Assembly: GCA_024239075.1 (NCBI GenBank)
Contig: JANBVI010000011.1
Span: 34,696 to 98,695, forward strand
Direction: 5' to 3'
Length of the DNA stretch: 64,000 nucleotides
Origin: Fischerella sp. CENA71
GTDB lineage: Bacteria > Cyanobacteriota > Cyanobacteriia > Cyanobacteriales > Nostocaceae
The position numbers were made by a program, and so were the translations under genes. The notes beneath the pieces are model-generated. The model ran no database searches and was not told where the DNA came from. It worked only from the letters and a program-made list of their open reading frames with translations. The stretch's first letter is position 1, and each line of letters opens with the position of its first letter. Below, piece after piece: positions 29,848 through 44,548 of this stretch.

Positions 29848-30664
29848 AAAGCATTTACCAGAATACTTAATGGAAGCAGCAGAACTAGCATTATTTATGA
29901 CTGCTGCGGGAATATTTACCTGTGTGTTTGAGTATCCTGGTTCTCCCATTCATCAAGCAATTCCTAATGCCGATTTGCGTCGGTTTTTGATTGGTATAGT
30001 CATGGGGATGACGGCAATAACCCTAATCTATTCTCCTTGGGGCAAGCAATCCGGCGCACATATGAATCCTGCTGTGACGCTCACATTTTATCGTCTAGGA
30101 AAAGTTAAACGTCAGGATGCTATTTTTTACATTCTATTTCAGTGTTTTGGCGGTTTGTTTGGGGTTTATTTGGCAGCACTATTATTGGGTCAGGTGTTCA
30201 CTAAAGCGCCTGTAAACTATATCGTCACCGTGCCAGGAACATCAGGTTGGGTTGTGGCTTTATTGGGTGAACTAGTCATTGCATTTGTGATGATGATGAC
30301 AGTTTTGCTAAGTAGTAACAACCAAAAACTCAATCGCTTTACAGGGCTGTTTGCCGGATTTTTGGTAATGCTTTATGTCTTTTTGGAAGCTCCTTTATCT
30401 GGCTTTAGCATGAATCCTGCCCGCAGCTTGGCCTCTGCCTTCCCGGCTCAGATTTGGACAGCATTTTGGCTGTATGTAATTGTGCCACCTGTGGGAATGT
30501 TGCTGGCATCAGGATTATATCAATATCTATTTGGCAAGCGCGCCGTCAAATGTGCCAAATTGCATCACGACAATCACAAACGCTGTATTTTTCGCTGTAA
30601 CTACAATCGTAACGGCAAAATCGATTTGAGTGACAGCTTGCCGATTCCCAAAGAACAATCTTGA
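29834..30664 (+). CDS. Aquaporin/glycerol facilitator (MIP family)
   Basis: The 276-aa protein has six hydrophobic helices and the two half-helix motifs MNPAVT (about residue 78) and MNPARS (about 195), the hallmark of water and glycerol channels. I start it at METFRKHLP (29834), inside the end of the glucosidase gene. A basic, Cys- and His-rich C-terminal tail ([16 protein letters not shown]) is unusual for the family and could bind metal or be redox-regulated. Coupling to a glucosidase suggests a role in osmotic stress or solute release (inference). Confidence 0.9.
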
Positions 30665-30751
30665 CCAATTATTCCTTGATATTACAGAGCAAGCGAATTT
30701 ATTCGTGGTTCAATCCAAAAACTAAAATCTAAAATCTAAAATTGTCTGACA

Positions 30752-32311
30752 ATGAATACTCATTATGATGTGATCGTCATCGGCACTGGCGCGGGTGGTG
30801 GCACTTTGGCCTACCATCTTGCCCCTAGTGACAAGAAAATTTTAATTTTGGAGCGGGGTAAATTTCTACCGAGAGAAAAGCAAAACTGGAGTGCGTTGGA
30901 AGTTTACCAGCAAGAACGGTATCACACTCAAGAGCAGTGGTACGACGTCAACCATAAACCCTTCCGTCCAGCAACAAACTACTGGGTTGGCGGTAATACC
31001 AAAGTTTACGGTGCAGCTTTGTTACGATTACGGGAACGCGACTTTGAGCGAGTGGAACACAAGGACGGTATTTCACCAGAATGGCCCTTAAAATATCGCG
31101 ACTTTGAACCGTACTACACTCAAGCAGAGCAGCTTTACGATGTTCACGGTCAAGGTGGTGTTGATCCCACCGAGTCAGCTAGGAGTTTACCTTACCCTCA
31201 TCCTCCCGTAGACCATGAACCCCGTATGCAGGAACTGGTTAACAGTCTGAGGCAAGCTGGTTTGCATCCCTTTAACCTGCCATTGGGGTTAAAACTTAAT
31301 GAGGTGGATAAGAGTTTGGGGAACTGTATTCGTTGCAATACCTGCGATGGCTTTCCTTGTTTGACTCAAGGCAAAGCCGATGCAGAAGTTAACTGTATTC
31401 AACCCATTCGCCATCACTCAAACATCACTTTACTGACTGAAGCCAAAGTGACACGTTTACATACAAGTTCTTCTGGTCGAGAAGTCACCCGCGTAGAAGC
31501 CGAGATTAATGGTGAAACTCAATTCTTTACAGGCGATATTGTAGTGGTTGCTTGCGGTGCGATTAACTCGGCAGCATTGTTGTTGCGATCGCACAATGAC
31601 CAACATCCCAACGGATTGGCAAATAGTTCTGATCGTGTGGGGCGCAACCTGATGAAGCATATTTGCATGGCAATGGTGCAACTAAATACAAAACTTAATC
31701 TTTCTGTTTATCAAAAGACGATCGCCGTTAGTGATTTTTATTGGGGCGAATCCGATTTTCCTTACCCGATGGGCTTGGTACAGAATACTGGCAACGTACT
31801 GGCAGATATGCTACCTGCCGAAGTTCCCACACTGCTGGCTCCACTATTAAGACTGCGACCGGGGGCAGAACTAAGAACAGTTGCCGATCATACAGTTGGC
31901 TGGTGGTTGCAAACAGAAGATTTACCCGATCCTGAGAATCGCGTGCGGATAGAGAAAGATCGCCTTTACTTAGACTATAAACCCAACAACTTAGAAGCAA
32001 GCGATCGCCTAGCTAAACGCTGGGTAGCTGTTCTCAAGCAGGTTGATCGGGCAGAACACTGTATTCCCTTTAGTCTTTATCCCCGCAATATGATGCCGCT
32101 GCAATCAGTTGGTCATCAATGCGGCACTTGTGTTTTTGGAGAAGACCCAAAAACCTCCGTACTGGATCTTAATTGCCGTACCCATGATGTGGATAATCTC
32201 TATGTTGTCGATGGTAGCTTCTTTCCATCCAGTTCTGCCGTCAATCCCACGCTGACCATTATCGCCAATTCCTTGCGAGTGGGCGATCGTTTACTCGAGC
32301 GCTTGAAGTGA
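30752..32311 (+). CDS. GMC-family FAD-dependent oxidoreductase
   Basis: The 519-aa protein begins with an FAD-binding motif (VIVIGTGAGGGTLAYHLA), followed by the NYWVGGNTKVYGAALLR block, and ends with VDGSFFPSSSAVNPTLTIIANSLR, the GMC C-terminal signature with the conserved catalytic Asn. A Cys-rich insert (NCIRCNTCDGFPC) around residues 190-205 is characteristic of GMC proteins of the gluconate/choline-type branch. It should oxidise an alcohol substrate, perhaps a sugar or polyol, using FAD. No cytochrome partner is adjacent. A heptad repeat precedes its start. Confidence 0.85.
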   Translation: MNTHYDVIVIGTGAGGGTLAYHLAPSDKKILILERGKFLPREKQNWSALEVYQQERYHTQEQWYDVNHKPFRPATNYWVGGNTKVYGAALLRLRERDFERVEHKDGISPEWPLKYRDFEPYYTQAEQLYDVHGQGGVDPTESARSLPYPHPPVDHEPRMQELVNSLRQAGLHPFNLPLGLKLNEVDKSLGNCIRCNTCDGFPCLTQGKADAEVNCIQPIRHHSNITLLTEAKVTRLHTSSSGREVTRVEAEINGETQFFTGDIVVVACGAINSAALLLRSHNDQHPNGLANSSDRVGRNLMKHICMAMVQLNTKLNLSVYQKTIAVSDFYWGESDFPYPMGLVQNTGNVLADMLPAEVPTLLAPLLRLRPGAELRTVADHTVGWWLQTEDLPDPENRVRIEKDRLYLDYKPNNLEASDRLAKRWVAVLKQVDRAEHCIPFSLYPRNMMPLQSVGHQCGTCVFGEDPKTSVLDLNCRTHDVDNLYVVDGSFFPSSSAVNPTLTIIANSLRVGDRLLERLK

Positions 32312-32695
32312 TAGAGCTAATTTCAAAGGTTGTCGAACCTAGAGCCTAAATGACTTTATGGTCGAATACCTGTTTTGTAATCGCGCGATCGCAAACCTCA
32401 AAAACTGCAAAAGTATAGCAATAGCACTAGTTAAAGGCTTAGGCCACCTATGGGATGAGAACGAGTAGATAAACAGGAGCCACTAGTTGAGAGCGATCGC
32501 TTCAGATAAGGGATATGCAAAAATGTTTGCCGACCATTGGTCGGCAAATTCCAATGCCGACCAACTGTAGTCGGCTGCTCTGGGCCTAAGAGGCACAGAA
32601 GATTGATTTAAAGTCTGCTTAATTCTTACAAGAAGTAACTTCAAATTTTGAGGATAACATACCATACTCTTTTGATGTGCATTCATCCAATTCAT
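32312..32695. terminator. Convergent intergenic with hairpins (possible bidirectional terminator)
   Basis: Two dyads lie here. TTTGCCGACC and its complement (32526-32548, 3-bp loop) are followed at once by GCCGAC/GTCGGC. They sit between the convergent GMC gene and the minus-strand cyclase-family gene, so a bidirectional terminator is likely. No strong T tract is present. No gene is supported in this stretch. Confidence 0.45.
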
Positions 32696-33544
32696 TCAAA
32701 ATAATTCATACTCAATCGGCGCGCAATCAGCTTTGATAAATTTGTAGAGCAAAGGACGACATGGGGCTGCATCTGTAACAAAAGCTGGTATTTGAAGATT
32801 TAACAAATAACGTCCATCCTCTATTTCATCCGATACATATACCATTTCCGAGATAGTTTTCAAAGAGCATTGCTTCGGTTCTATATTATGTTCTCCTGGT
32901 AAAACATTCCAGAATTTCCGATGCACGCTCAAGTAACCCTGATCATAAGTTCGGTCTACAGAGGGTATATCCACTAGAAGATGTTTTACTCCTAGACTGA
33001 GGATATAGTCCATACTATCTAAGGATAAAAAGGGTGGGGGTTGTTTCTGGTAATCTCGTGACTTTTTAGACTCATCATTGGGTAATGTTCTTATAATTAG
33101 CCCCATTAGAAAATCGGGGTTTGACCCTTTGAGTTTTTCAATTAATCTCTGTTGAGAAATCATCCAATCTTCTGGTTGTTTAGATGGCATATATTCATCT
33201 TCTATTTCCAACGCCAGTTGTGGTTTTACAGTGACCAAAGTAGACGGAATAAAAGCGTCTTTCAATATGTTATGTATGGAAATTCTTTGATTAGAAATAT
33301 GCCCGATGCATTCTGTATGCGTACCATGACAATGGGGAATGAAGCGATATTCTTCCACATTAGTACTACCGCCTCTACGGGTATCACCAATAAATTCTCC
33401 CACTATATAAGTGTTGGCACTAGCCTGTGGAGCGTCCCAGAAAACTGGATGTGCAGCACTAAATTGCAATGGGATGGAAATATCTATAGGGGTTTGTGTT
33501 TCTACAGAATAAGTTCCAGAGTTTAATATAATCTTCAATTCCAT
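32696..33544 (-). CDS. Cyclase-family hydrolase (kynurenine formamidase-like)
   Basis: The 282-aa protein has the metal-binding segment IPHCHGTHTECIGH near residues 70-82, matching the HxGTHxD motif of the cyclase/KynB family. The last acid is Glu78 instead of Asp. Other segments such as DISIPLQFSAAHPVFWDAP fit the fold. KynB-type members hydrolyse N-formylkynurenine, the product of tryptophan dioxygenation, and an indoleamine dioxygenase is encoded 1.7 kb away. The gene runs on the minus strand, divergent from the dioxygenase cluster, so joint regulation is not certain. A generic metal-dependent hydrolase is the alternative. Confidence 0.75.
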   Translation of the reverse strand: MELKIILNSGTYSVETQTPIDISIPLQFSAAHPVFWDAPQASANTYIVGEFIGDTRRGGSTNVEEYRFIPHCHGTHTECIGHISNQRISIHNILKDAFIPSTLVTVKPQLALEIEDEYMPSKQPEDWMISQQRLIEKLKGSNPDFLMGLIIRTLPNDESKKSRDYQKQPPPFLSLDSMDYILSLGVKHLLVDIPSVDRTYDQGYLSVHRKFWNVLPGEHNIEPKQCSLKTISEMVYVSDEIEDGRYLLNLQIPAFVTDAAPCRPLLYKFIKADCAPIEYELF

Positions 33545-34164
33545 TGAGTACCTAATTAGAAAAAATCAGAAATATTTCAGCTTTAAGAACTTAATCTTAT
33601 TTCATTAATAAGCAAATAGTAATAAGCATGTCAAGCCAGCTATTAGTTACGTAATTATTGAGCTAGGTCTGACAAGAATAAATTTATTATTTTTATTTCT
33701 ATAGCAATTATAAATGAGTAAAAAACATCTGTGAGACGCCGAGTTACCACTTTTCTTTTTTGTTCACATATCCAATACAAATGTTACATATTGTTTTTTT
33801 TCTTTACATATTAAACATAAAGTTTATATATATACATCTTATTTAATTACTTTGTTGATGGAGTATTTTTTGAACAAAGCTCAAAAATTAATTACGTATA
33901 AATACAGTAGATTATTCTTTAACAAAGATTTAATAATTAGATGTTGCCTAGATAGATGAGCGCAAAAAGTTTCCAAGCTTATTCAATAGACATCTTCAGA
34001 CATGGGGTATCGAGCCTGATTAGATAAGGCTTTTATATTCTTTGTTAGAGAGGTTTGATAAATATCAAAAGTAAGTGGAAGATATATAGAACTGCGACGA
34101 GCAATTAGCATACTCAAAATATCTAAGCTGAATACCTAATAGTAATCAAACTCAACTAAAAATA
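33545..34164. other. Divergent AT-rich intergenic
   Basis: This 620-bp stretch separates the divergent hydrolase and metalloenzyme genes. I see no frame or repeat of note. It should hold both promoters. Confidence 0.4.
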
Positions 34165-34878
34165 ATGCAAGCAATACTTGCGCGGATTGACGCGAAGAAG
34201 AAAGATTTGACCAAGGCAAAATTCTTTCAGTTTCTGCAAGATAAAAATATCCATCCTCGGCAACGAATGGCTTGGGTTCCTTGCTACGCTCCCCTAGCAA
34301 TGTCATTTGCAGACTTGAATAAATACTTTCTGCGAAAAGAGCCTACAAATAGCGAGATTCAAGAAATTATCAACAAACAGACCTATGAAGAAGCAACACA
34401 TTATGTTTGGTTTTTGCATGACCTTCAGGCATTAGAATTTGACCAACCACAGCTGTTGAGCGATACCTTGAAGTTCCTCTGGGGAGAAGAAACTCAAAAA
34501 ATTCGTCTTACCTGTACCCAGATTGCAACAATTACTGCCAGCGCAGACCCAGCAATCGTTCTCGTTGCGATTGAAGCAATTGAGGCAACCGCACACATAA
34601 TCTTCACTCACACCAGGCAAGTCGCACGCGAACTGCAACAAATTACTAATCAGAAATGTTACTTCTTTGGCGATTCGCACTCTAATGTTGAAACGGGTCA
34701 TGCGATCGGAACCGCAGATATGGAAGATTTTCTGAGAGGCATACAACTTTCGCAAAAGCAATCAATACATGCAATTGATATTGTCGAAACGATTTTCACA
34801 ATGGTCGAAGAGTTCTTGGATGAATTAGTGAAGTACGCGGAAAATCATCCAATTGCACTTAAGTTAAATGTTACATAA
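34165..34878 (+). CDS. Heme-oxygenase-fold metalloenzyme-like protein (HDO/TenA-like)
   Basis: The 237-aa all-helical protein has clustered Glu and His residues on several helices: Glu76 and His79 in EEATHYVWFLHDL, Glu140 and His144 in IEATAHIIFTH, and His172, Glu176 and His179 in DSHSNVETGH. This layout resembles heme-oxygenase-like diiron or iron-binding oxidases, which perform decarboxylations, oxidations or amine chemistry in natural-product pathways. It is followed in the same direction by an indoleamine dioxygenase, suggesting it works on a tryptophan-derived substrate (inference). TenA-type or PqqC-type proteins share the fold. Exact activity unknown. Confidence 0.6.
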   Translation: MQAILARIDAKKKDLTKAKFFQFLQDKNIHPRQRMAWVPCYAPLAMSFADLNKYFLRKEPTNSEIQEIINKQTYEEATHYVWFLHDLQALEFDQPQLLSDTLKFLWGEETQKIRLTCTQIATITASADPAIVLVAIEAIEATAHIIFTHTRQVARELQQITNQKCYFFGDSHSNVETGHAIGTADMEDFLRGIQLSQKQSIHAIDIVETIFTMVEEFLDELVKYAENHPIALKLNVT

Positions 34879-34997
34879 TTGTATTTAAATTAGATGATAG
34901 CAGTTTGCTTAGTGGATAAATTAGTTAAGATTTATCAAACTTGTGGTTGGCGGTAAAACCCAAGAGATTTTGAACAGTTATGGCATCTACAAATAAT

Positions 34998-35093
34998 AAA
35001 ATGCCCAGCCGTATCAATAATATTTTTGGCACAACCTAGATATTTAGGCGCTTTTGCCTCAAGGCAAGTTGCGCTTCGAGGGCTGGGTATTTT
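34998..35093. repeat. Long hairpin between two enzyme genes
   Basis: AAAATGCCCAGCC (34998-35010) pairs with GGCTGGGTATTTT (35081-35093), one G-U pair excepted. Inside is a smaller dyad TTGCCTCAAGGCAA. It may be a MITE relic, a processed-RNA hairpin or an attenuator between the metalloenzyme and the dioxygenase. No gene was seen in the rest of 34879-35198. Confidence 0.5.
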
Positions 35094-35198
35094 ATTTTCT
35101 GGAAATGGCTATAACAGATAACTAATAACTGTTCAAAACTTAAGTGTTACAAAAGACTGCATTCGCAATTTTCCAATACACTTCAGCCAGATTAGACG

Positions 35199-36347
35199 AT
35201 GTATTCACAATTAAAACAACCAGTGATCTCTAATTTAGATGCCTATCAAGTCCACTCAGAACGAGGTTTTTTACCGAAAGAAGATCCACTTGAAAGATTA
35301 CCAAGTAAATTTGAAGTCATAGAAAATATCGCTGCAAACTTGTCTGCGCTTTTAATTACAGGTAAATACAGACATGTGATTAATAAAGTACACTTACCTG
35401 ATATTTCGCAATTAGAAACTGAACAGCAAATCAAGCGTGCATTTCTTCTCCTGTCAATCTTTGGTAATGCATATGTATGGGGTGGAGAAATCCCTGCAAC
35501 AGTAATTCCACATTCGCTTGCTATACCGTTGTGTAAGCTCGCAAACATACTTGATCGCCCGCCGATAGTTGCGCTCAGTTCGATGGTGTTGGACAACTGG
35601 AGAAGAATCGATAAAACTCAACCAATTGAATTAGATAATATTGCCCCACTCCAGCTTTTCCTTGGCGGAATTGATGAATATTGGTTTTACGCAACAGCAA
35701 TCGCCATTGAAGCCAAAGGAGCGCCTGCTCTGATATCGCTTGTAGAAGCACAAAAATTTGTCAGCCTCGATAATACGACACTAGTGACTATGCATTTGCA
35801 AAAAATTGTTGCGGTTATTGCGAGAATGCAGGCGATATTTAAAGAAATTACTCACAAATGTGACCCATACATTTTTTATCATCGTGTGCGTCCATTTGTT
35901 GCTAGCTGGCACGAACCGGGTGTAATTTATGAAGGAGTCAGCGATACTCCACAAATGTTTGTAGGAGGAAGTGCAGCACAAAGTTCGCTTCTCCAATCGT
36001 TGGATGCAGGGTTAGGAATCAAACACGACCGAGAAAAACACGAATCATATTTGCGGCAAATACGTATGTATATGCCCCTAGCACATCGCCGGTTTATTGA
36101 AGCGTTGGAGATGGGACCATCGATTCGAGAATTTGTACTCAACAATCAAGAAAATTATCCAATGTTACGCGAACATTACAACGAATGCGTGCAGGGAATC
36201 GAATATTTTAGAAAGCAGCATATAAAAATTGCTGTCAACTACATAACCAAGCAAGCACCGCAGAATAAACAAGGTACAGGTAGTACAAACTTTGCCCATT
36301 TCTTAAGAGAAGTTAAACAACAGACTACAGCACATTTAATTTCTTGA
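35199..36347 (+). CDS. Indoleamine 2,3-dioxygenase (IDO)-family heme enzyme
   Basis: The 382-aa protein aligns by eye with human IDO1 in its conserved heme region: FYHRVRPFVASW (with Phe226 and Arg231 in the same places as in the human enzyme), VIYEGVSDTPQMFVGGSAAQSS, and RMYMPLAHRRFIEAL, whose His296 should be the proximal heme ligand. IREFVLNN and a late helical tail also fit. IDO cleaves the indole ring of tryptophan to give N-formylkynurenine. IDO-type rather than TDO-type enzymes are rare in bacteria. Its place among a formamidase-like hydrolase, a halogenase and a methyltransferase suggests a dedicated secondary-metabolite role. Confidence 0.85.
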   Translation: MYSQLKQPVISNLDAYQVHSERGFLPKEDPLERLPSKFEVIENIAANLSALLITGKYRHVINKVHLPDISQLETEQQIKRAFLLLSIFGNAYVWGGEIPATVIPHSLAIPLCKLANILDRPPIVALSSMVLDNWRRIDKTQPIELDNIAPLQLFLGGIDEYWFYATAIAIEAKGAPALISLVEAQKFVSLDNTTLVTMHLQKIVAVIARMQAIFKEITHKCDPYIFYHRVRPFVASWHEPGVIYEGVSDTPQMFVGGSAAQSSLLQSLDAGLGIKHDREKHESYLRQIRMYMPLAHRRFIEALEMGPSIREFVLNNQENYPMLREHYNECVQGIEYFRKQHIKIAVNYITKQAPQNKQGTGSTNFAHFLREVKQQTTAHLIS

Positions 36348-36456
36348 TTGGTGTACCGTCATTTTTCTAGCTAATTATTATTTGGAAGTGCCTGGTACGA
36401 TAACCAACGCATTCAACACATTTATTTTTTATTTTCTTCAGTGTAAAAGATTGATC

Positions 36457-37215
36457 ATGACAATGTTTGCAGGAAAAGTTGCGATCATCACAGGCGGTAG
36501 TTCGGGTATCGGGCGGGCAAGTGCGATCGCATTTGCAAAAGAAGGAGCTAAAGTTGTTGTCGCCAGCCGACGCATTCAGGAGAGTGAAGAAACTGTCGAA
36601 CTAATTCGGAATGCTGGAGGTGAAGGGTTTTTCGTGAAAACTGATGTATCTCAAGAAGCTGATGTAAAAACAATGGTTGAAAAAACCATTGAAATCTATG
36701 GTCGGCTTGATTATGGATTCAATAATGCAGGTATCGATCAAATTCCCACGCCACTACCCGAACAAACCGAAGAAACATTTGATCAACTAATCAATATTAA
36801 TCTCAAAGGCGTGTGGCTGGCAATGAAATACGAAATTCCCCAGATGTTGAAAACAGGTGGGGGCGCAATTGTCAACACTGCATCAATTGGTGGTTTGATC
36901 GGATTTCCGGGAATCCCGATTTATATAGCGAGTAAACATGCAGTTTTAGGGTTAACAAAAGCAGCTGCGATCGAATATGCCAAGTCGGGGATTCGCATTA
37001 ATGCAATTAGCCCTGGAACAGTTATCACCGATTTGTTTGAGCGTTCTCTTGGGAAAGATCCACAAATGAAAGAACAGATCATGGCTATGCATCCTATCGG
37101 GCGTGCAGGAACACCCGAAGAAATTGCAAGTGCAGTCCTGTGGCTTTGCTCAGAAGGTGCAGGATTTACCATCGGACAGTCATTGACAGTTGATGGTGGA
37201 TTCACGGTGCAGTGA
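36457..37215 (+). CDS. SDR oxidoreductase of the tryptophan-type cluster
   Basis: The protein (252 aa from ATG 36457, MTMFAGKVAI) has TGGSSGIGR, VASRR in the cofactor-specificity loop (favouring NADPH), NNAGID, a catalytic Ser in NTASIGG and YIASKHA. The C-terminus GFTIGQSLTVDGGF is of the FabG/glucose 1-dehydrogenase type. The frame is open to 36382, but the added N-terminus is not SDR-like. It lies 110 bp after the dioxygenase in the same direction, so it may reduce or oxidise a cluster intermediate. The substrate is unknown. Confidence 0.8.
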   Translation: MTMFAGKVAIITGGSSGIGRASAIAFAKEGAKVVVASRRIQESEETVELIRNAGGEGFFVKTDVSQEADVKTMVEKTIEIYGRLDYGFNNAGIDQIPTPLPEQTEETFDQLININLKGVWLAMKYEIPQMLKTGGGAIVNTASIGGLIGFPGIPIYIASKHAVLGLTKAAAIEYAKSGIRINAISPGTVITDLFERSLGKDPQMKEQIMAMHPIGRAGTPEEIASAVLWLCSEGAGFTIGQSLTVDGGFTVQ

Positions 37216-37391
37216 CCAAATAATTCGTAATTAAAGCCAAAAATTTCAACTAATAATTGGAGCAAAGCTACTTGACAACTTCTAAGGAATTAATATTAGA
37301 ACCTAAAGGTTCACTGAGGATTTGCATTCTTTAGTTTTGTGTGAAAACCCACTTGGTTTAACTTTACAAGTTCACTAATACAAATTGAAAA

Positions 37392-37817
37392 ATGGTAGAT
37401 GATACTATGTCGAATCAAAACATCATGGCAAGTTTATCAGAAGTAACTCAAAAAACTATAGAAAATCATTACGCAGCAATTCATGCCCTTGATTTAGATG
37501 CATGGGTAGCGACGTTTGCTCAAGATGGTCAGAGCTACGATCCTGTTGGTACTCCATCGATTCAAGGACATGCTGCATTAGCTCAATTTTTTCAAAAAAT
37601 GTTTGGTCAATTTCAAAATGTCGAAGTCATTAAAGAAAGTATGTTTGTGGTAGGGAATCAAGCAGCAGTTAAATGGTCTGGTGCTGGTGTTACCAAGAGT
37701 GGTCGTCAGTTTCAATGTGAAGGAATTGACGTTTTCCACATTAATGATTCAGGAAAAATCCAAACTTTATTAGCATATTGGAATCCAGAAACATTAAAAA
37801 AACAATTGCAAAGTTAA
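37392..37817 (+). CDS. SnoaL/NTF2-like protein
   Basis: The 141-aa protein fits the cone-shaped NTF2-like fold: an N-terminal helix (TIENHYAAIHALDLDAWVATF), DPVGTPSIQGHAALAQFFQ and a strand pattern ending in DVFHINDSGKIQTLLAYW. Members serve as small cyclases, isomerases or ligand-binding proteins in antibiotic pathways, or as stress proteins. A second ATG occurs 18 bp in. It is co-directional with the dioxygenase and SDR genes, so a cluster role is plausible but not shown. Confidence 0.75.
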   Translation: MVDDTMSNQNIMASLSEVTQKTIENHYAAIHALDLDAWVATFAQDGQSYDPVGTPSIQGHAALAQFFQKMFGQFQNVEVIKESMFVVGNQAAVKWSGAGVTKSGRQFQCEGIDVFHINDSGKIQTLLAYWNPETLKKQLQS

Positions 37818-37839
37818 TTCTTTATCAGCCCTTCGGGTA

Positions 37840-38030
37840 AGGTAGAAGGCAGGAGACAGAAGGTAAGAAAAGTTTTAAGGTATGCCTTTTTACCTTGCCC
37901 ACTTGGGTTCAAGACCCCCAGCAAATCGAAAATTTGGTGGTCTACAATTACTGGGGGTCTGTAGACGCGAAGTGATCCCCCCCCTGTAATTGATTCCTTC
38001 TGCCCTCTGCCTCCTGCCTTTTTTCAATGG
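37840..38030. repeat. Inverted repeat block of TTCTGCC/GGCAGAAG-type heptads
   Basis: A G-rich arm with AAGGCAGGAGACAGAAGG (about 37846-37863) faces a C-rich arm ending TCTGCCTCCTGCCTT (about 38000-38020). Inside is a smaller pair around CCCCCAGCAAATC and ACTGGGGGTCTG. It is a typical Nostocales dispersed element, inserted between two cluster genes. Confidence 0.6.
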
Positions 38031-38066
38031 CGTTAAGTTCTTAATCATGAATTAGGAATTAAATTA

Positions 38067-38384
38067 ATGGCTTGGTTTTTTTTATTTCTGGCAATTGCTT
38101 GTGAAATTTTTGGAACAACTTCTCTAAAGCTGGCAAATGTCTTTTCACAACCCATTTACTTAATGGGTGCAGTTGTCGGCTATCCTCTAGCATTTAGCTT
38201 CTTTGGATTTTCTCTGAAAAAGATTGAAGTTAGTGTTGGGTATGCTATCTGGTCTGGAATAGGAATAATTGGAACATCCTTATTGGGTTCAATTATCTTT
38301 CAAGAAAATTTCAGACCGACTAAAGCTTTATTTATTGGCTTAATTTTTGTGGGAGTAATTGGATTAAATCTAATTGAATCTTAG
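38067..38384 (+). CDS. SMR/EmrE-type small multidrug transporter
   Basis: The 105-aa protein has four hydrophobic helices and the SMR signature LAIACEIFGTTSLKLA, with the essential membrane-embedded Glu (about residue 13), plus VGYAIWSGIGIIGTS. SMR proteins export cationic, aromatic compounds or guanidinium by proton antiport, as homodimers or heterodimers. Only one gene is present, consistent with a homodimer. It lies between the NTF2-like and methyltransferase genes and may export the cluster's methylated, cationic product (inference). Confidence 0.85.
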   Translation: MAWFFLFLAIACEIFGTTSLKLANVFSQPIYLMGAVVGYPLAFSFFGFSLKKIEVSVGYAIWSGIGIIGTSLLGSIIFQENFRPTKALFIGLIFVGVIGLNLIES

Positions 38385-38442
38385 GAAATGAACGCTAAGG
38401 ATCTTTGGACACCACCTCATAATTTATAGAAGTATTAGGAAA

Positions 38443-39282
38443 ATGGTTGCGACTTACCCTACAGAACTCGAAATCAAGATGTATGAAATCTATGATGCAG
38501 GCTACCAAGTTTTCCTTGAAAACTGGCAGGTCAATCGTCAGGTAGCCCTCGATTTCATGCAACAATACCTAAAACCGCAGCCCCCACAAGTAGCGGTGTT
38601 AAGTGTAGGGGCTGGACCAGGTGATTTTGATATACAAGTAATACGTACTCTCAAGCAGCAACTACCAAAAGAATTAACACTTCGTTACGTGGCTGTTGAG
38701 CCAAATCATCTACATCGGCAGCGCTATGAGCAAAAAATCAATGTACCAGAATTTGCTGATGTTGACTTGAAGGTTTACCCGAAAAAAATTGACGAGTTTC
38801 AGACAGATGAAAAATTCGATATCGTTCACTATACCCACTCGATGTATCACATGCCTGGTCAAGAGAAGCGGCTTGTGCAAGAGGCAATGGAGATGCTTAA
38901 AAATGATGGCTTTTTGATCATCACTCTTGATACTATCGACGCGGTGATATTTGACACCATCTTCAAGCATACTGCTCTCACAGGACAAGGCTTTACAGAA
39001 ATGCTGCAAATGCAAGAAATGCAGGCGATAGTTGAAGGGCTTGGGTTGTCGTATAAATTAGAAAGTTATGCAGAATATATCGATGTTCAGCTTTGTTTTG
39101 AAGAAAATTCCTCTGCGGGGAAAGTACTGATGGATTTCTTCTGTCAAGCTGACTCAAGTCAACTTTCACCTGAACAACGCGAAGAAATTTTACAGATATT
39201 AGCATCCGAAGTAATTGAACAGGACGGACGTAAACTAGTACCTATGCCTGCGGCGACGATGGTTATTCCTAAACAAGGATAA
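38443..39282 (+). CDS. Histamine N-methyltransferase-like SAM enzyme
   Basis: The 279-aa protein has a class I SAM-binding motif (VAVLSVGAGPGDFDIQVI) near residue 50, an acidic motif (RYVAVEPNHLH) and FDIVHYTHSMYHM. This resembles the layout of histamine N-methyltransferase, whose SIGGGAGEIDLQI and FIHMIQMLYYV segments sit at equal positions. HNMT-like enzymes methylate small amines such as imidazole or indole side chains. It follows the SMR gene by 58 bp and probably shares its transcript. The substrate is unknown; an O- or C-methyltransferase cannot be excluded. Confidence 0.75.
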   Translation: MVATYPTELEIKMYEIYDAGYQVFLENWQVNRQVALDFMQQYLKPQPPQVAVLSVGAGPGDFDIQVIRTLKQQLPKELTLRYVAVEPNHLHRQRYEQKINVPEFADVDLKVYPKKIDEFQTDEKFDIVHYTHSMYHMPGQEKRLVQEAMEMLKNDGFLIITLDTIDAVIFDTIFKHTALTGQGFTEMLQMQEMQAIVEGLGLSYKLESYAEYIDVQLCFEENSSAGKVLMDFFCQADSSQLSPEQREEILQILASEVIEQDGRKLVPMPAATMVIPKQG

Positions 39283-40228
39283 AAGTAGCGCTGCGATGTA
39301 GAAGTTGAAGGTTAGAGGATTAAATAAATCCTCATAAAGTGAGTGGAGAACTGACTCTTTTGCGTGGAGTCTGTCTCACCGTCCCCACGTAAAAGAGTCC
39401 CAGACTCCGGTTATGTTGGCAGTCAGTAATGAACCCAACAGATGCAGACCAGACTCCATGAAACAATCCCAACCTGATAGTCGAAATCGAGGTATGACTA
39501 GGGGTTCAAGCTTGATTAGGCATGTCGCAGAGTAATTCATGCCCAGCTCTATTTCTGACTTTCACCTCGCAGGTATAGTCGATTAGTCTTGTTAACTTGT
39601 CGCGTTTTTTATTAAGCCTGCTTCATCCTAGTACATGGAAGACCTCGTCACTATTGACGAATTGAATAAACCAGAGAAGGTGCTTTCTCGTTTTTTGTGT
39701 CACATCAGGTGGCACCAAAACTCTCCGTCCAAGGATTGGACCTTGCTGAATCAGGGTATGAATTATCATTCTGTAGATGCTTCTGCGGCTACTCTACGAG
39801 AAGGGCTGCGTCCTACGGTGCAGGGTGCGTAACGTAGACGCGAAGCCGCTTCCCGTAATCCTTCGGAGAACCCGCAGGGTAGGGTGGTGAAGCGTTCGCG
39901 AAGCGTGCCGGAGGCTTTAGAATCCTGGTAGATGCTCAATACTGCTCGGATAAGACAAATCGATTGACATTTAAACCCACCAGAGACGCGCCATAGCGCG
40001 TCTCTACATGGCCCAAATTATGACGAAAAATCCTTAACCGAGAAATATTGGGTAGATGCTACCCTACCCTTACGGGAAGACACTTCGTGTCTACATTTCG
40101 CTTCGCTGCATACCCTGCACCGAAGGCTTACGCCTACAGCATTACAAAACCAGATTCATACTTAAAATCAGCAACGCCAAGGATTGAGCTAACACATCAT
40201 CAATATTTTTTGAGGTAAAAATTAGATC
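39283..40228. repeat. Repeat-rich intergenic ahead of halogenase
   Basis: This 946-bp gap holds several dispersed repeats. A block at 39552-39581 nearly matches 703-732. GC-rich sequence lies at 39780-39920, of the kind that recurs in Nostoc genomes. A perfect 10-bp stem, AGAGACGCGC with a CATA loop (39982-40005), follows. A roughly 60-codon frame up to about 39535 shows no recognisable family. The halogenase promoter is probably near 40150-40210. Confidence 0.5.
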
Positions 40229-41857
40229 ATGTTGAGACAAAACACAACAAATGTCGTAATCGTTGGTGGCGGTACTGCTGGTTGGATGACTGCGTCATAT
40301 TTAAGCAAAGCCCTAAAGAGAAATGTTTCTATTACTCTAATTGAGTCATCTAATATTACAAAAATTGGAGTTGGTGAGGCTACTTTTAGTAGTATCAAAT
40401 CGTTTTTCGATTTTCTTGGTTTACAAGAATATGAATGGATGCCAAAGTGTAATGCCACATATAAGATGGCAATAAAGTTTGTGAATTGGAATACAAAAAA
40501 AAGGCATTTCTTCCATCCTTTTGAAAAATTAGACATTGTAGATGGATTCAGTATCTCTGAATGGTGGATGAAACTAAAGAAACATAGTGAGCCATTTGAT
40601 TACTCTTGCTTTGCTGCACCAACACTGTGCGATTCGCAGAGATCCCCTCGATATCTTAATGGTGAAGTTTTTGATAGTAGGGTAAAACAATTATTCTCTG
40701 ATGAGCATTTTGCTGAGAAAAGATTGATCACACTTGCTGATGCAGAAGGACAGTACCCTTACGCATATCATTTTGACGCAAATTTGATTGCTAAGTTTTT
40801 AAAAGATTATGCGATGCAAAGAGGCGTAAAGCAGATTGTTGATGACGTTATAGACGTTAAATTAACAGAAGAAGGCAGTATAGACTGTGTTCATACAAAA
40901 GGAAACCGTAGCATCAGTGGAGACTTATTCGTAGACTGTACAGGTTTTCGTGGTCTACTCATCAATAAAGCCCTCGGTGAGCCATTTATTTCTTTTTCCA
41001 AGTCGCTGTTATGCGACAGCGCCATCGCTATGCAAGTACCAACTAATATTAAAAAAGATGGGATTAACCCTTACACCAAAGCAACAGCACTTTCGTCTGG
41101 TTGGGTATGGGAAATACCTTTATATGGTAGAAATGGTGCAGGCTATGTTTATTCCAGTGCTTTTATCTCTAAAGAAGATGCTGAACAGGAATTTAGGCAA
41201 CATCTAGGACCAGTTTGTGAGCATCAGCAAGCATCACATATCAAAATGAGGATTGGACGCAACAGAAACTCATGGGTGAAGAACTGTGTAGCGATTGGTC
41301 TTTCCAGTGGATTTGTCGAACCCTTGGAGTCTACTGGTATTTTCTTTATTCAACATGGAATTGAAGAATTAGTCAGTCATTTTCCAAGCAATTCATTTAA
41401 TCAGGAGTTAATCGAGAGCTACAATCAGGCGATCGCTAATTGCATAGATGGTGTTCGAGACTTTTTGATTCTCCACTACCATGCTAGCGATAGAGTCGAT
41501 ACACCCTTCTGGAAAGCAACCAAGTACGATATTCAGATTCCGGACGAACTATCTCAAAGATTTAAGTTGTGGAAAAAGAGATTACCTAATAAAAAGAATA
41601 TCAATCCCTATTTTCATGGCTTTGAGACTTACTCATATTCCGTAATGATGCTTGGTCTTAACCATATACCTGAAAACAGTTTACCTATTATGGAATATAT
41701 GGACGATGACAAGGCTATGGCTCAATTTCGTGCAATTAAGGAGAAAATCAATTTTTTAAATACTACATTGCCATCTCAGTATGACTATTTAACCTATGTT
41801 ATGAAATCTCAAGAGCAATCAGAGTATCTTAACGAAAACCTTCTAGACACTGTTTAG
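40229..41857 (+). CDS. Flavin-dependent tryptophan halogenase
   Basis: The 542-aa protein has the FAD motif VIVGGGTAGWMTASYL near residue 10. It also has the catalytic lysine at position 79 (ATYKMAIKF), as in PrnA/RebH, the class signature GWVWEIP (about residue 290), and the EPLESTG motif with the conserved Glu. These define tryptophan-type flavin-dependent halogenases, which use FADH2, O2 and chloride or bromide to halogenate an indole ring. GAGG lies upstream of ATG. No flavin reductase is encoded beside it, so FADH2 must come from elsewhere. Nearby IDO, hydrolase and methyltransferase genes suggest a halogenated tryptophan or kynurenine product; ring position cannot be told. Confidence 0.9.
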   Translation: MLRQNTTNVVIVGGGTAGWMTASYLSKALKRNVSITLIESSNITKIGVGEATFSSIKSFFDFLGLQEYEWMPKCNATYKMAIKFVNWNTKKRHFFHPFEKLDIVDGFSISEWWMKLKKHSEPFDYSCFAAPTLCDSQRSPRYLNGEVFDSRVKQLFSDEHFAEKRLITLADAEGQYPYAYHFDANLIAKFLKDYAMQRGVKQIVDDVIDVKLTEEGSIDCVHTKGNRSISGDLFVDCTGFRGLLINKALGEPFISFSKSLLCDSAIAMQVPTNIKKDGINPYTKATALSSGWVWEIPLYGRNGAGYVYSSAFISKEDAEQEFRQHLGPVCEHQQASHIKMRIGRNRNSWVKNCVAIGLSSGFVEPLESTGIFFIQHGIEELVSHFPSNSFNQELIESYNQAIANCIDGVRDFLILHYHASDRVDTPFWKATKYDIQIPDELSQRFKLWKKRLPNKKNINPYFHGFETYSYSVMMLGLNHIPENSLPIMEYMDDDKAMAQFRAIKEKINFLNTTLPSQYDYLTYVMKSQEQSEYLNENLLDTV

Positions 41858-42286
41858 TTTTAATCATTACGTTTGGGGTGATTTAATTTCATCCCTTTTC
41901 TTACGCGTAGAAATTTCTCAACTTATGATGTTGTTGTTGCTGTTAAAAAAGGTAAAATAGCCAAGTTTGAACCTAATGAAGTGAAGTAATAGTTTAGTAA
42001 CTACCTTGATACTAAGAACAGTTCACTAAAGCTATACATCTATGCAGCAAGCATCTTATCCTACAGTCATCCTGGGTGGTGGCTTTGCTGGACTATTTAC
42101 AGCTTTGCACTTAAGCCAGCAGAATTACTTTGATTCAATTAAAATAATTGAACTGGATCTGCATTGCCTACGATGCTTACGAACAGAAAATGAGCCGTCG
42201 TTGTAGTCAAGCAATGGCTAATTATGCTGTTACTGCTTCTGGTGAAGATATGTAGAATTAAGTTAAAGTATTACGTAAGCTAAAAG
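41858..42286 (+). pseudogene. Gene graveyard, including NDH-2-like N-terminal fragment (42042-42206)
   Basis: Three broken pieces lie here. A C-terminal-looking stretch ends near 41988 (residues STYDVVVAVKKGKIAKF). A 54-codon frame at 42042-42206 starts MQQASYPTVILGGGFAGLF, the dinucleotide-binding N-terminus of NDH-2-type NADH dehydrogenases, and then decays. A third piece ends at 42255 (AYEQKMSRRCSQAMANYAV) and I do not recognise it. None is intact. Confidence 0.6.
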
Positions 42287-44548
42287 TTACAATCTGCCAT
42301 TGCGGCTTTCCATTTGTAGTATTTTGTAATTTTGTGTGTCATGGTTTCGCCAACAGTATCCGGATCTCGGTGGCCACCCTTCTTTAGTCTGAGAAAAATA
42401 ACTGCTAGACTCATTTTTCTCCACAATCCCATTAACTACTAGACCTAAAACATTTTGACCGGATCGCTCTAATATCTCTTGAGCAGAATCGGCACTTTTT
42501 GAATCAATTACTCCAGGTCTAGCCACAAATAAAATCCCATCTGTCATTTTGCTGACAGTCAGAGCTTCAGCAGCGAGAAAGATTGGAGGAGCATCGATAA
42601 TAACAAAGTCATACTGAGATGAAAAATCCTCAACTAATGAAGCCATTCGCTTGGAATCAAGCAAAGCCAGTGGATTGGGAGGTCTAACTCCAGCAGGTAA
42701 GACATCAAGATTATCCATTACCTGACAAACAGTATTGTTGAATTGAGCCTGACCGACAAGTACCTCGCTTAAACCGGCTACATTGGTTAGCTGCCAGAGA
42801 TGATGCTGAGAAGAGGATCGCATATCTGCATCAATTAGTAAAACTTTACGCCCTAGTTGAGCGATCGCAGCCGCTAAATTTGCTGAAACTGTGGATTTGC
42901 CTTCTTTGGGAACTGCGCTAGTTACCAAAATAGTTTTTAGTACTTTATCTGAACTCAAAAATTTCAGATTAGCTTGAATCATCCGGTACATTTCGCTAGT
43001 TAAAGAGTGGGGCTGATCTCTAACAGCAATTTCTGGAGTAATTGATTCCAAATCACGATGACGGGAGCGAACTTTACTAGCAGACAACGGCACAACCCCT
43101 AGCAAAGTATATCCAAATACCTCCCTAACTTCCTTAAGTGTTTTTAGAGACCTATCTCTCAATTCTAAGAAAAGAACGCTACTAGTTGATAAAAAGGCAC
43201 CGAACATCACACCTAACACCAAAATGATAGGTTTTGCACCCACTACTGGCTTTTCAGGAAGTAAAGCATTAGCAATGATCCTGGCATTGGCCGTATTTTT
43301 ATTCTTGGCTACCTGTAATTCTTGAACCTTTTTCAGTAGAGTTTGATAGGTGGATTGGGCAACTTCAAGTCTCTGTTCTAGCTCGCGCTGATTTTGTACT
43401 AACTGGGGTATAATTTTTGTCCGACGTTCGTAGGCAGAGCGAGAATTATACAGAGAAGCCAGTTTTTGGGCTAAGGCAACGCGTTGTATTTCTGATTGCA
43501 GAAAATCTTTAATTAAGCTTTGTTTGAGTTCTCCAATCTGCAATAGCCCCGATGGAACTGTTGTTTGACTACCAACTGTTTGTGCAATTTGCTTTTGCAG
43601 GAGAGACTCTAAGTTAGCTTTCTTAGCTTCTAGATCGACAATCGTCGGGTTACTATCCACAAAACGGCTGCGCTGAAAGGCTAACTGTCGTTCTGTATCT
43701 TGCAGTTGTGTAAGAACTCCCTGGACAGCAGGCGACTGACTTAAGGCACTCACAGTGCTTGCTTGTTCGGAATTTAGGTCTACTTTCTGACGAAGCTCAT
43801 TGGTTTGGGCAGTTACCTGGTTCAATTCAGCCTTTAGATTATCAATTTGGCTGTCCAAATTTCCCATATTGGCAACGGCTGTCTTAGCTTCTTCTGATAG
43901 ATCAATAACATTATTCTTCTGTTTAAATATGCGTAGATCCACTTCTGCTTGGTGAACAGCAGCTTGAGTTTTAGGAAGCTGCATGGCCATAAATTGACGA
44001 GTTGATTCTGCCTCAGAGCGACTTGTGAGAATATCATTTTCTAAATAAAGATTCATTATTTTATTAACTACTGCCGCTGCTTCTTTGGGGTTACGGCTTT
44101 TATAAGTAATTTGTAAAACATCCGTGCCACCCACAATTTTTAGAGTCAGAGCTTTTTCAAACTCTTCAACTTTTAGGCGTTCACCTTTTTTGTTTTTGAG
44201 GTGTAGTTCGTTAATTGTCCTCTGCAACAAAGTAGGAGAAGATATAACTTCTATCTGACTGCTGATAGGATTTTGAGTTGATACTAGTGATCTCAAATCT
44301 CCTGTTTCTGCTCCTTCAGAATTACTTGGCAAGAGATTAGAACCAACTACGTTAAAAGAAGGACTTTTGAATAATAATTTTCCTTTTGCTTCATAAGAGG
44401 GTTTGATTAAGGTTGTGGATAAAGCGCTGAGGGTAACTGTAGCTACAAAAATACTAATAGCGGGTAACCACCGTCGCTTCAATGTTAAAAAATAATGACC
44501 AAGGTCTAAATCTATTGATTCTCTAGATTGCATAAACTTTTCCGACAT
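42287..44548 (-). CDS. Wzc-type BY-kinase/polysaccharide co-polymerase
   Basis: The 753-aa protein begins with a Wzz-type chain-length domain (first membrane helix about residues 30-52, long periplasmic coiled-coil, second helix about 433-455). It continues into a cytoplasmic BY-kinase with Walker A (SAVPKEGKSTVSANLAA), Walker A' (VLLIDADMR) and Walker B (FVIIDAPP). The C-terminal tail has only a few Tyr residues (SSYFSQ, SGYCW, NYKI), fewer than E. coli Wzc. It controls chain length and export of polysaccharide. It is the last gene of the minus-strand exopolysaccharide locus, 156 bp after the GH10 gene. Confidence 0.9.
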   Translation of the reverse strand: MSEKFMQSRESIDLDLGHYFLTLKRRWLPAISIFVATVTLSALSTTLIKPSYEAKGKLLFKSPSFNVVGSNLLPSNSEGAETGDLRSLVSTQNPISSQIEVISSPTLLQRTINELHLKNKKGERLKVEEFEKALTLKIVGGTDVLQITYKSRNPKEAAAVVNKIMNLYLENDILTSRSEAESTRQFMAMQLPKTQAAVHQAEVDLRIFKQKNNVIDLSEEAKTAVANMGNLDSQIDNLKAELNQVTAQTNELRQKVDLNSEQASTVSALSQSPAVQGVLTQLQDTERQLAFQRSRFVDSNPTIVDLEAKKANLESLLQKQIAQTVGSQTTVPSGLLQIGELKQSLIKDFLQSEIQRVALAQKLASLYNSRSAYERRTKIIPQLVQNQRELEQRLEVAQSTYQTLLKKVQELQVAKNKNTANARIIANALLPEKPVVGAKPIILVLGVMFGAFLSTSSVLFLELRDRSLKTLKEVREVFGYTLLGVVPLSASKVRSRHRDLESITPEIAVRDQPHSLTSEMYRMIQANLKFLSSDKVLKTILVTSAVPKEGKSTVSANLAAAIAQLGRKVLLIDADMRSSSQHHLWQLTNVAGLSEVLVGQAQFNNTVCQVMDNLDVLPAGVRPPNPLALLDSKRMASLVEDFSSQYDFVIIDAPPIFLAAEALTVSKMTDGILFVARPGVIDSKSADSAQEILERSGQNVLGLVVNGIVEKNESSSYFSQTKEGWPPRSGYCWRNHDTQNYKILQMESRNGRL

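Follow-up and report, generated by a model that had tools for sequence, protein, structure and literature searches.

What is made by a gene cluster in which a tryptophan halogenase stands together with an indoleamine 2,3-dioxygenase (IDO)? The original prediction for the window (the whole stretch of 64,000 nucleotides that was analysed) named seven genes, and all of them are present at the coordinates given, with intact open reading frames. The gene list was incomplete, as an eighth gene coding for a SnoaL-like protein had been missed. The features are as follows:

32696..33544, minus strand: PF04199 'cyclase' family hydrolase (E 2.8e-11), candidate N-formylkynurenine amidohydrolase
33545..34164, no strand: divergent intergenic region, candidate control region for both arms (by position only)
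34165..34878, plus strand: AetD/SktA-family heme-oxygenase-like diiron oxidase (HDO), by sequence and predicted fold; ligand positions E76, H79, E140, H172, E176, H179
35199..36347, plus strand: IDO (PF01231), heme-ligand His and substrate Arg conserved
36382..37215, plus strand: SDR oxidoreductase (PF13561, E 1.6e-66)
37392..37817, plus strand: SnoaL-like/ketosteroid-isomerase-like protein
38067..38384, plus strand: SMR family small multidrug exporter (PF00893, E 4.7e-25)
38443..39282, plus strand: SAM methyltransferase, histamine-N-methyltransferase (HNMT)-like by its PDB relatives
39327..40195, no strand: 869-bp insertion in the gap between methyltransferase and halogenase
40229..41857, plus strand: FADH2-dependent tryptophan halogenase (PF04820, E 9.5e-150)

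The genes were found to be co-conserved: the whole block occurs in two genomes, and the combination of IDO and HDO occurs in four. The second complete block is in Fischerella sp. PCC 9431, given as H. welwitschii UTEX B1830 in PMC4558948. Because the same eight genes have identical order and orientation there, the block is not a chance arrangement. The identity between the two blocks is 88–95% (91% for the hydrolase), and that of the flanking GH63 and GMC genes is only 69%, their matches in PCC 9431 probably being paralogues. A recent horizontal transfer of the block was rejected because a stretch of rpoB is 93.7% identical, meaning that the block shows ordinary within-genus divergence. A comparison of ribF (pieces of 67–82%) was set aside, as the copy compared could be part of a different cluster. 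The GMC oxidoreductase and GH63 genes were rejected as cluster members, as both lie outside the conserved block. PCC 9431 does not have the 869-bp insertion, in which lies a repeat of about 115 bp that is dispersed through the genome of the window (46 matches, including the insert itself). Promoter-like matches in 32500–42400 were not above chance (23 found, 28.1 expected).

The assignment of the IDO holds (PF01231, E 9.7e-104). The proximal heme His, the substrate Arg and the C-terminal GTGxT are all present in the alignment. The Arg matches human R231, the residue with which human IDO1 holds the carboxylate of its substrate, and the His is the heme ligand. Given these two residues, the enzyme would fit an amino-acid substrate. 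The Arg was kept in every aligned row, including the catabolic type, and hence does not single out the clade of the cluster IDOs. Distal residues differ within this clade (L, F, H and H at position 126; A, A, N and H at position 167). The plasmid matches to the IDO comprised 10 records, all with <60% identity.

The IDO could also belong to ordinary tryptophan catabolism, with the halogenase nearby by accident. IDOs of other family members do adjoin HPPD-like and homogentisate-dioxygenase-like genes at four of five loci (L045–L048, with the Pfam check covering L047 only). However, such genes are absent from the eight-gene block, and a 97/98 branch separates the cluster IDO from the IDOs of these neighbourhoods. 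This explanation, already disfavoured, is very improbable.

The cluster-type IDOs form one clade (95/95). At all four of their loci (the window, PCC 9431 [G004], G035 and G487), an HDO adjoins the IDO or is one gene away; the G035 locus stops at the contig end. At the other IDO loci of the family (L044–L049), an HDO match was found in none of six within the stretch examined. The constant partner of the IDO is the AetD/SktA-family HDO and not the halogenase.

This HDO had been predicted as a heme-oxygenase-fold oxidase, and it matches AetD by both sequence and predicted fold (no match in Pfam). Its chemistry as an AetD/SktA-family diiron oxidase had gone unrecognised. The predicted model is moderate (pLDDT 71, with residues 168–184 below 50). 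The six iron-ligand positions (three His and three carboxylates) are kept in the IDO-linked HDOs, with D76 replaced by E. The ligands of AetD are described in PMC11611611, and the last motif is given there as 170-HX3EX2H-179. The spacing of this motif, counted back from H179, gives H172.

The pocket of the window HDO has L44, F167 and V214. All four IDO-linked HDOs show F44 changed to L/I, Y167 changed to F and V at position 214, a combination found in 0 of 45 other HDOs (taken singly, F167 is present in 2 of these and L/I44 in 10). As the four HDOs form one clade (100/97), the pocket change is one event and not four. Judged from these residues, the changes would fit a substrate that has already lost its indole. 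The AetD family binds non-indole aromatic amino acids, since AetD was crystallised with L-Tyr and L-Phe (structure titles).

If the HDO acted first, 5-halo-tryptophan would become a halo-indole-3-carbonitrile or halo-skatole, before the IDO opened the indole and the hydrolase removed the formyl group. The direct homology of the HDO to AetD argues for this order, as do its 42–48% identity to the HDOs of named SktA-like cassettes and T142, which it has in common with SktA, although the G487 HDO has A142 like AetD. On the other hand, AetD and 13 of 13 HDOs from halogenase-FMO cassettes retain F44 and Y167, both of which are altered in all four IDO-linked HDOs. Moreover, the IDO retains the Arg for carboxylate binding, which would be needless for a skatole or nitrile. 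We consider an HDO-first order rather unlikely. A 2-aminoacetophenone-type end product would be identical in both orders.

A tentative reading, held at less than even odds, is that the HDO, along with its IDO partner, was re-tuned so that its substrate changed from tryptophan to (halo)kynurenine. A new oxidative C–C cleavage of the kynurenine side chain by the HDO, giving an aminoacetophenone and cyanide or an acyl nitrile, would then stand in place of kynureninase. This undescribed pathway family would span three cyanobacterial genera, with halogenation in Fischerella but perhaps not elsewhere.

The halogenase is of the tryptophan type, as predicted, with K79 and GWVWEIP (residue 291). With GGGTAG at residue 13, all three markers of these enzymes (GxGxxG, GWxWxIP and a catalytic Lys) are present. 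Among PDB entries, Trp-6 and Trp-5 halogenases come closest, and the single best relative is a Trp-6 enzyme. The match to 6nsd ('Tryptophan halogenase', presumably Tar14 of taromycin) has an E value of 2.1e-176. Because 5 of 14 control genomes also passed the PF04820 cut-off, as G035 and G487 did weakly, only close tryptophan halogenases were counted. The halogenase does share a cluster with the IDO as predicted, but a close one was found in only two of the four IDO/HDO genomes and none in the other two.

The latter count would suit a division into two modules: IDO, HDO and SDR making one compound, and halogenase, SMR protein and methyltransferase serving another pathway or self-protection. 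The SMR-methyltransferase pair occurs without halogenase or IDO nearby in four genomes (L127–L130), and L041 has a halogenase, methyltransferase and SMR (fragment) together without IDO or HDO. However, the eight genes of both complete examples form one tight block, with seven on one strand, and G487 also has a methyltransferase, albeit a different one, between HDO and IDO. Two separate modules are unlikely.

The remaining proteins are less uniform in their evidence. The predicted formamidase-like hydrolase is a PF04199 'Cyclase' member, but the formamidase label is weak because 19.8 bits is far below the arylformamidase equivalog cut-off of 223. Its best PDB match, a kynurenine formamidase, is not significant (E 0.63). 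The hydrolase has H71-C-H73-GTH76-T-E78-x3-H82, that is, GTHTExxxH (Asp to Glu) and not the KynB motif GTHxDxxxH, and is a candidate for a distantly KynB-like enzyme. Including the genome of the window, 3 of 120 relatives carry it, but the IDO loci of G035 and G487 showed no relative of this gene. The predicted structure is unusable (pLDDT 39). The predicted SDR and SMR exporter stood; the SDR start is probably near 36457, where homology begins, and at L043 an SDR with 78% identity follows the IDO. The HNMT-like label also stood: the PDB relatives of the methyltransferase that rise above noise are all histamine N-methyltransferases (best E 2e-7).

From the observed genes, order, co-conservation, clades and residue changes, we infer the reactions, their order and the product. 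The halogenase would act on free tryptophan, most likely at C5. Cleavage of the indole by the IDO would yield N-formyl-(halo)kynurenine, from which the PF04199 hydrolase may take off the formyl group. Next, the HDO would attack the ring-opened (halo)kynurenine at its alanyl side chain; possible products are a 2-aminoacetophenone-type ketone, if it acts like SktA, or an acyl nitrile, if it acts like AetD. Tailoring by the SDR and SnoaL-like protein, nitrogen methylation by the HNMT-like enzyme and export by the SMR protein could follow. Our main reading, at a probability of roughly 0.45, is that the cluster uses L-tryptophan to make an aromatic amine or ketone that is small, halogenated, probably N-methylated and exported.

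A plain halo-kynurenine as end product is made less likely by the AetD/SktA-family HDO that accompanies the IDO throughout. For a halo-kynurenine kept intact as a taromycin-like amino acid, the HDO would need another job, e.g. N-oxidation. Taromycin biosynthesis does convert chlorinated tryptophan to 4-chlorokynurenine (PMC12615548), and other HDOs are N-oxygenases (PMC13108848). However, the block has no NRPS gene, and AetD and SktA, to which this HDO is most closely related, both take carbons off the side chain; we find this route quite unlikely.

HDOs are a growing family whose function is hard to infer from sequence: AetD and SktA have nearly the same substrate and different outcomes (PMC13108848). 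A third branch, tied to IDO and with defined pocket changes, would allow a direct test of the switch in substrate or outcome. PCC 9431 bears the whole cluster and is a concrete target; no compound was assigned to its cluster among the literature matches listed (nostocarboline, Fischerella). The unusual heart of the cluster is the pairing of an IDO with a nitrile/skatole-type diiron enzyme in four cyanobacteria.

The cluster resembles the taromycin route to 4-chlorokynurenine in having a tryptophan halogenase followed by ring opening. The ring-opening partner of Tar14 is a TDO, whereas the present enzyme is of the IDO family, an HDO is added and the eight genes lack an NRPS. The pairing of an AetD-family HDO with an IDO was found in none of the full-text literature matches listed. 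The set of halogenase, dioxygenase, amidohydrolase and methyltransferase alone is not new because it was proposed, together with a kynureninase, for mycemycin in Streptomyces, from tryptophan via 5-Cl-kynurenine (PMC5867642). There, the dioxygenase is a TDO and the excerpt names no HDO; here, kynureninase is missing. In the terreazepine cluster of Aspergillus terreus, too, an IDO has been repurposed and serves only a secondary metabolite, but this cluster is fungal, and the excerpt of PMC7448278 mentions neither halogenase nor HDO.

AetD is the nitrile synthase of the aetokthonotoxin pathway in Aetokthonos hydrillicola, with the pocket F44, M139, A142, Y167 and S214 (PMC13108848, PMC11611611). 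The window HDO aligns with it without gaps over 228 residues and shares the HDO fold and all six Fe-ligand positions, one of them with E for D, but has L44, I139, T142, F167 and V214, and its partner is an IDO. In aetokthonotoxin-type clusters, AetD stands with the halogenase AetF, the P450 AetB and the tryptophanase AetE (PMC10654658). By Pfam, the eight proteins include no P450, PLP lyase, tryptophanase, AetF-type enzyme or kynureninase, and the sole flavin enzyme is the PF04820 halogenase. The cassette FMO and a G035 FAD enzyme were tried as AetF-like halogenases and rejected, no entry being named AetF (PDB matches with E up to 1e-10). SktA converts 5-bromo-Trp to 5-bromoskatole and has T139, T142 and F214 (10.1021/jacs.4c14573, via PMC13108848). 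The window HDO shares the family and T142 but differs in I139 and V214, and its halogenase has sisters, 70–78% identical, in cassettes with SktA-type HDOs that are inferred to be skt-like. These cassettes have an FMO, whereas the present cluster has the IDO, SDR, SnoaL-like protein, SMR exporter and methyltransferase instead.

All open reading frames that the original prediction had placed at 32696–41857 were present, and the families named for them agreed with the Pfam profile search, with the exception of the heme-oxygenase-like protein, a heme-oxygenase-like diiron oxidase (HDO) of the AetD/SktA family. Pfam added one block gene missing from the first list:

37392–37817: SnoaL/ketosteroid-isomerase-like protein

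A sequence check found both halogenase motifs (K79 and GWVWEIP), and in the PDB search the closest solved structures to the halogenase were Trp 6- and 5-halogenases. For the methyltransferase (MT), histamine N-methyltransferases were the sole PDB relatives exceeding noise. The 'formamidase-like hydrolase' belongs to PF04199 as proposed, but it scored 19.8 bits for arylformamidase, where the cut-off is 223, and in the alignment it carries Glu at the position occupied by Asp in a solved kynurenine formamidase chain. As the score is far under the cut-off and Asp is replaced, the formamidase label is a guess. The first interpretation is partly supported and refined: the cluster is genuine, and its point of interest is the pair of HDO and indoleamine 2,3-dioxygenase (IDO).

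The entire block recurs in Fischerella sp. PCC 9431, with all eight genes in identical order and orientation and 90–96% amino-acid identity. At the nucleotide level the match consists of pieces with 88–95% identity; it begins at 32681 and extends to the stop codon of the halogenase at 41857. Because an rpoB stretch of the two genomes is 93.7% identical, a divergence of this size is normal within the genus, and the comparison of block and rpoB identity gave no sign of a recent transfer of the block. The flanking GH63 glycosidase and GMC oxidoreductase genes (27172–32311) share 69% nucleotide identity with those of PCC 9431, where GH63 lies on the opposite side of the block. The 946-bp gap preceding the halogenase is mainly an 869-bp insertion after the MT (39327–40195), missing from PCC 9431; its bases 601–732 match a dispersed repeat of ~115 bp that recurs dozens of times across the own genome. 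Three other genomes of the genus had no match to the IDO (E 1e-20) or the halogenase (E 1e-60).

Counting the own genome each time, IDO relatives were found in 12 of the 218 family genomes (E up to 1e-60), 10 of 120 relatives and 4 of 386 genomes sampled phylum-wide (both E up to 1e-20). Four IDOs are at least 56% identical to that of the window: the window's own, PCC 9431 (91%), G035 (63%) and G487 (56%). All four have an HDO gene nearby. In PCC 9431 and the window the two genes are neighbours; the order is HDO-FAD enzyme-IDO-SDR up to the contig end in G035 and HDO-methyltransferase-IDO in G487. An HDO match (E 1e-8) was found at none of six other family IDO loci (L044–L049, with L046 starting at the IDO and covering one side only), a count that takes in six of the eight other IDO genomes and leaves out L143 and L144 as well as the weaker IDO matches L031, L092 and L093. 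HPPD-like and homogentisate-dioxygenase-like genes occurred at four of the five IDO loci L045–L049 (Pfam check for L047 only). The four IDO-linked HDOs form one clade (100/97; tree of 49 rows), as do the four HDO-linked IDOs (95/95; 12 rows, truncated L031 left out). HDO matches occur in 34 of the 386 phylum-wide genomes; the tree and alignment set takes in only part of these, identical copies and matches with <180 aligned residues being excluded. Among the four genomes, the two of Fischerella (window and PCC 9431) carry a close Trp halogenase. The best PF04820 matches of G035 and G487, at 4.1e-19 and 5.1e-14, are weak. They pass the cut-off, and 5 of 14 control genomes likewise have matches that pass it.

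Several other loci were observed. A further HDO of the own genome (L094, 8191–8883, 44% identical to the block HDO) has no halogenase or IDO match within its 19-kb stretch. The IDO of L044 (9476–10612) belongs to neither IDO group; its neighbours are amidohydrolase, ABC exporter, sulfotransferase and PhyH-type genes, plus 765-aa and 369-aa proteins without a Pfam match at 1e-8. Plasmid records with distant HDO relatives (<60% identity) number 328, of which 257 are predicted to be conjugative; Escherichia accounts for 262 of the 328, Piscirickettsia for 36 and Salmonella for 22.

The IDO-linked HDOs differ in the pocket. All four have L/I at residue 44, F at 167 and V at 214, a combination found in none of the 45 other HDOs (singly: L/I44 in 10, F167 in 2, V214 in none). 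F44 and Y167 are kept in all 13 HDOs of halogenase cassettes. In AetD, the nitrile synthase of the aetokthonotoxin pathway, stacking on the indole is the presumed role of F44, Y167 is able to hydrogen-bond the carboxylate and S214 contacts the 7-bromine (PMC11611611); PDB titles list AetD structures with L-Tyr and L-Phe. The window IDO retains the heme His, the substrate Arg and the C-terminal GTGxT in the alignment. This Arg is the counterpart of the residue with which human IDO1 binds the carboxylate of its substrate. All 13 aligned rows have it, and it is therefore no marker of the cluster clade. At the distal positions, cluster IDOs have GSA or ASA versus ETG or STG in the L045–L049 group. 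Taken together, the HDO pocket changes and the IDO residues point to an IDO acting on an amino acid and an HDO acting on a non-indole, i.e. (halo)kynurenine. Resting on one clade, this is a lead, not proof.

HDO, halogenase and FMO lie in a row at 9 of the 12 halogenase loci of a first set (L051, L053, L054, L056–L061), the others being PCC 9431 and two loci without an HDO match (L052, L055). In a second set (L033–L042), partly overlapping in genomes with the first, the HDO adjoins the halogenase in 5 of 10 loci. The SktA signature (T139, T142, F214) is present in 10 of 13 distinct cassette HDOs and T139 in 0 of 36 HDOs from outside halogenase cassettes, so the cassettes can be read as skt-like. 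The window halogenase is 70–78% identical to those of the nine cassettes, and C5 as its position of attack would be a guess based on this similarity.

Sister halogenases also occur in another cassette type (L034, L035 and L055, an Aphanothece MAG) with a class I aminotransferase, an FAD monooxygenase, an O-methyltransferase and a protein with weak, sub-cut-off cupin and heme-oxygenase-like matches. A second Trp halogenase of the own genome (L033, 8875–10488; 71% identical to the block halogenase) lies with a PF01212 lyase (a family that includes tryptophanase), an anthranilate synthase fusion, an FAD monooxygenase, an O-methyltransferase, an FAD synthetase and exporter genes (ABC, HlyD, MacB-like). 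This locus possibly joins Trp supply, FAD supply and halogenation.

The SMR exporter and HNMT-like MT also occur as a pair, 71–82% identical to those of the cluster, in four stretches without a halogenase or IDO match (L127–L130; G002, G062, G001 and G003), perhaps as a stand-alone methylate-and-export protection module. Halogenase, MT and an SMR fragment lie together at L041. Among 120 relatives, the own genome included, the search for the hydrolase gave 3 genomes, one of the copies carrying an internal stop codon. These distributions suggest that the Fischerella block was put together from three modules, namely HDO-IDO-SDR as the core, the SMR-MT pair and a skt-like halogenase.

The HDO-IDO pairing was not found in the published literature among the matches listed, and the main text of a genome-mining survey including PCC 9431 does not contain 'tryptophan halogenase', 'indoleamine' or 'kynuren' (PMC4558948). 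Single elements have precedents: chlorinated Trp is converted to chlorokynurenine in taromycin (PMC12615548), a halogenase-TDO-kynureninase route was proposed for mycemycin (PMC5867642), Aspergillus has an IDO dedicated to a cluster (PMC7448278), and the AetD-family HDOs AetD and SktA are known to act on brominated Trp.
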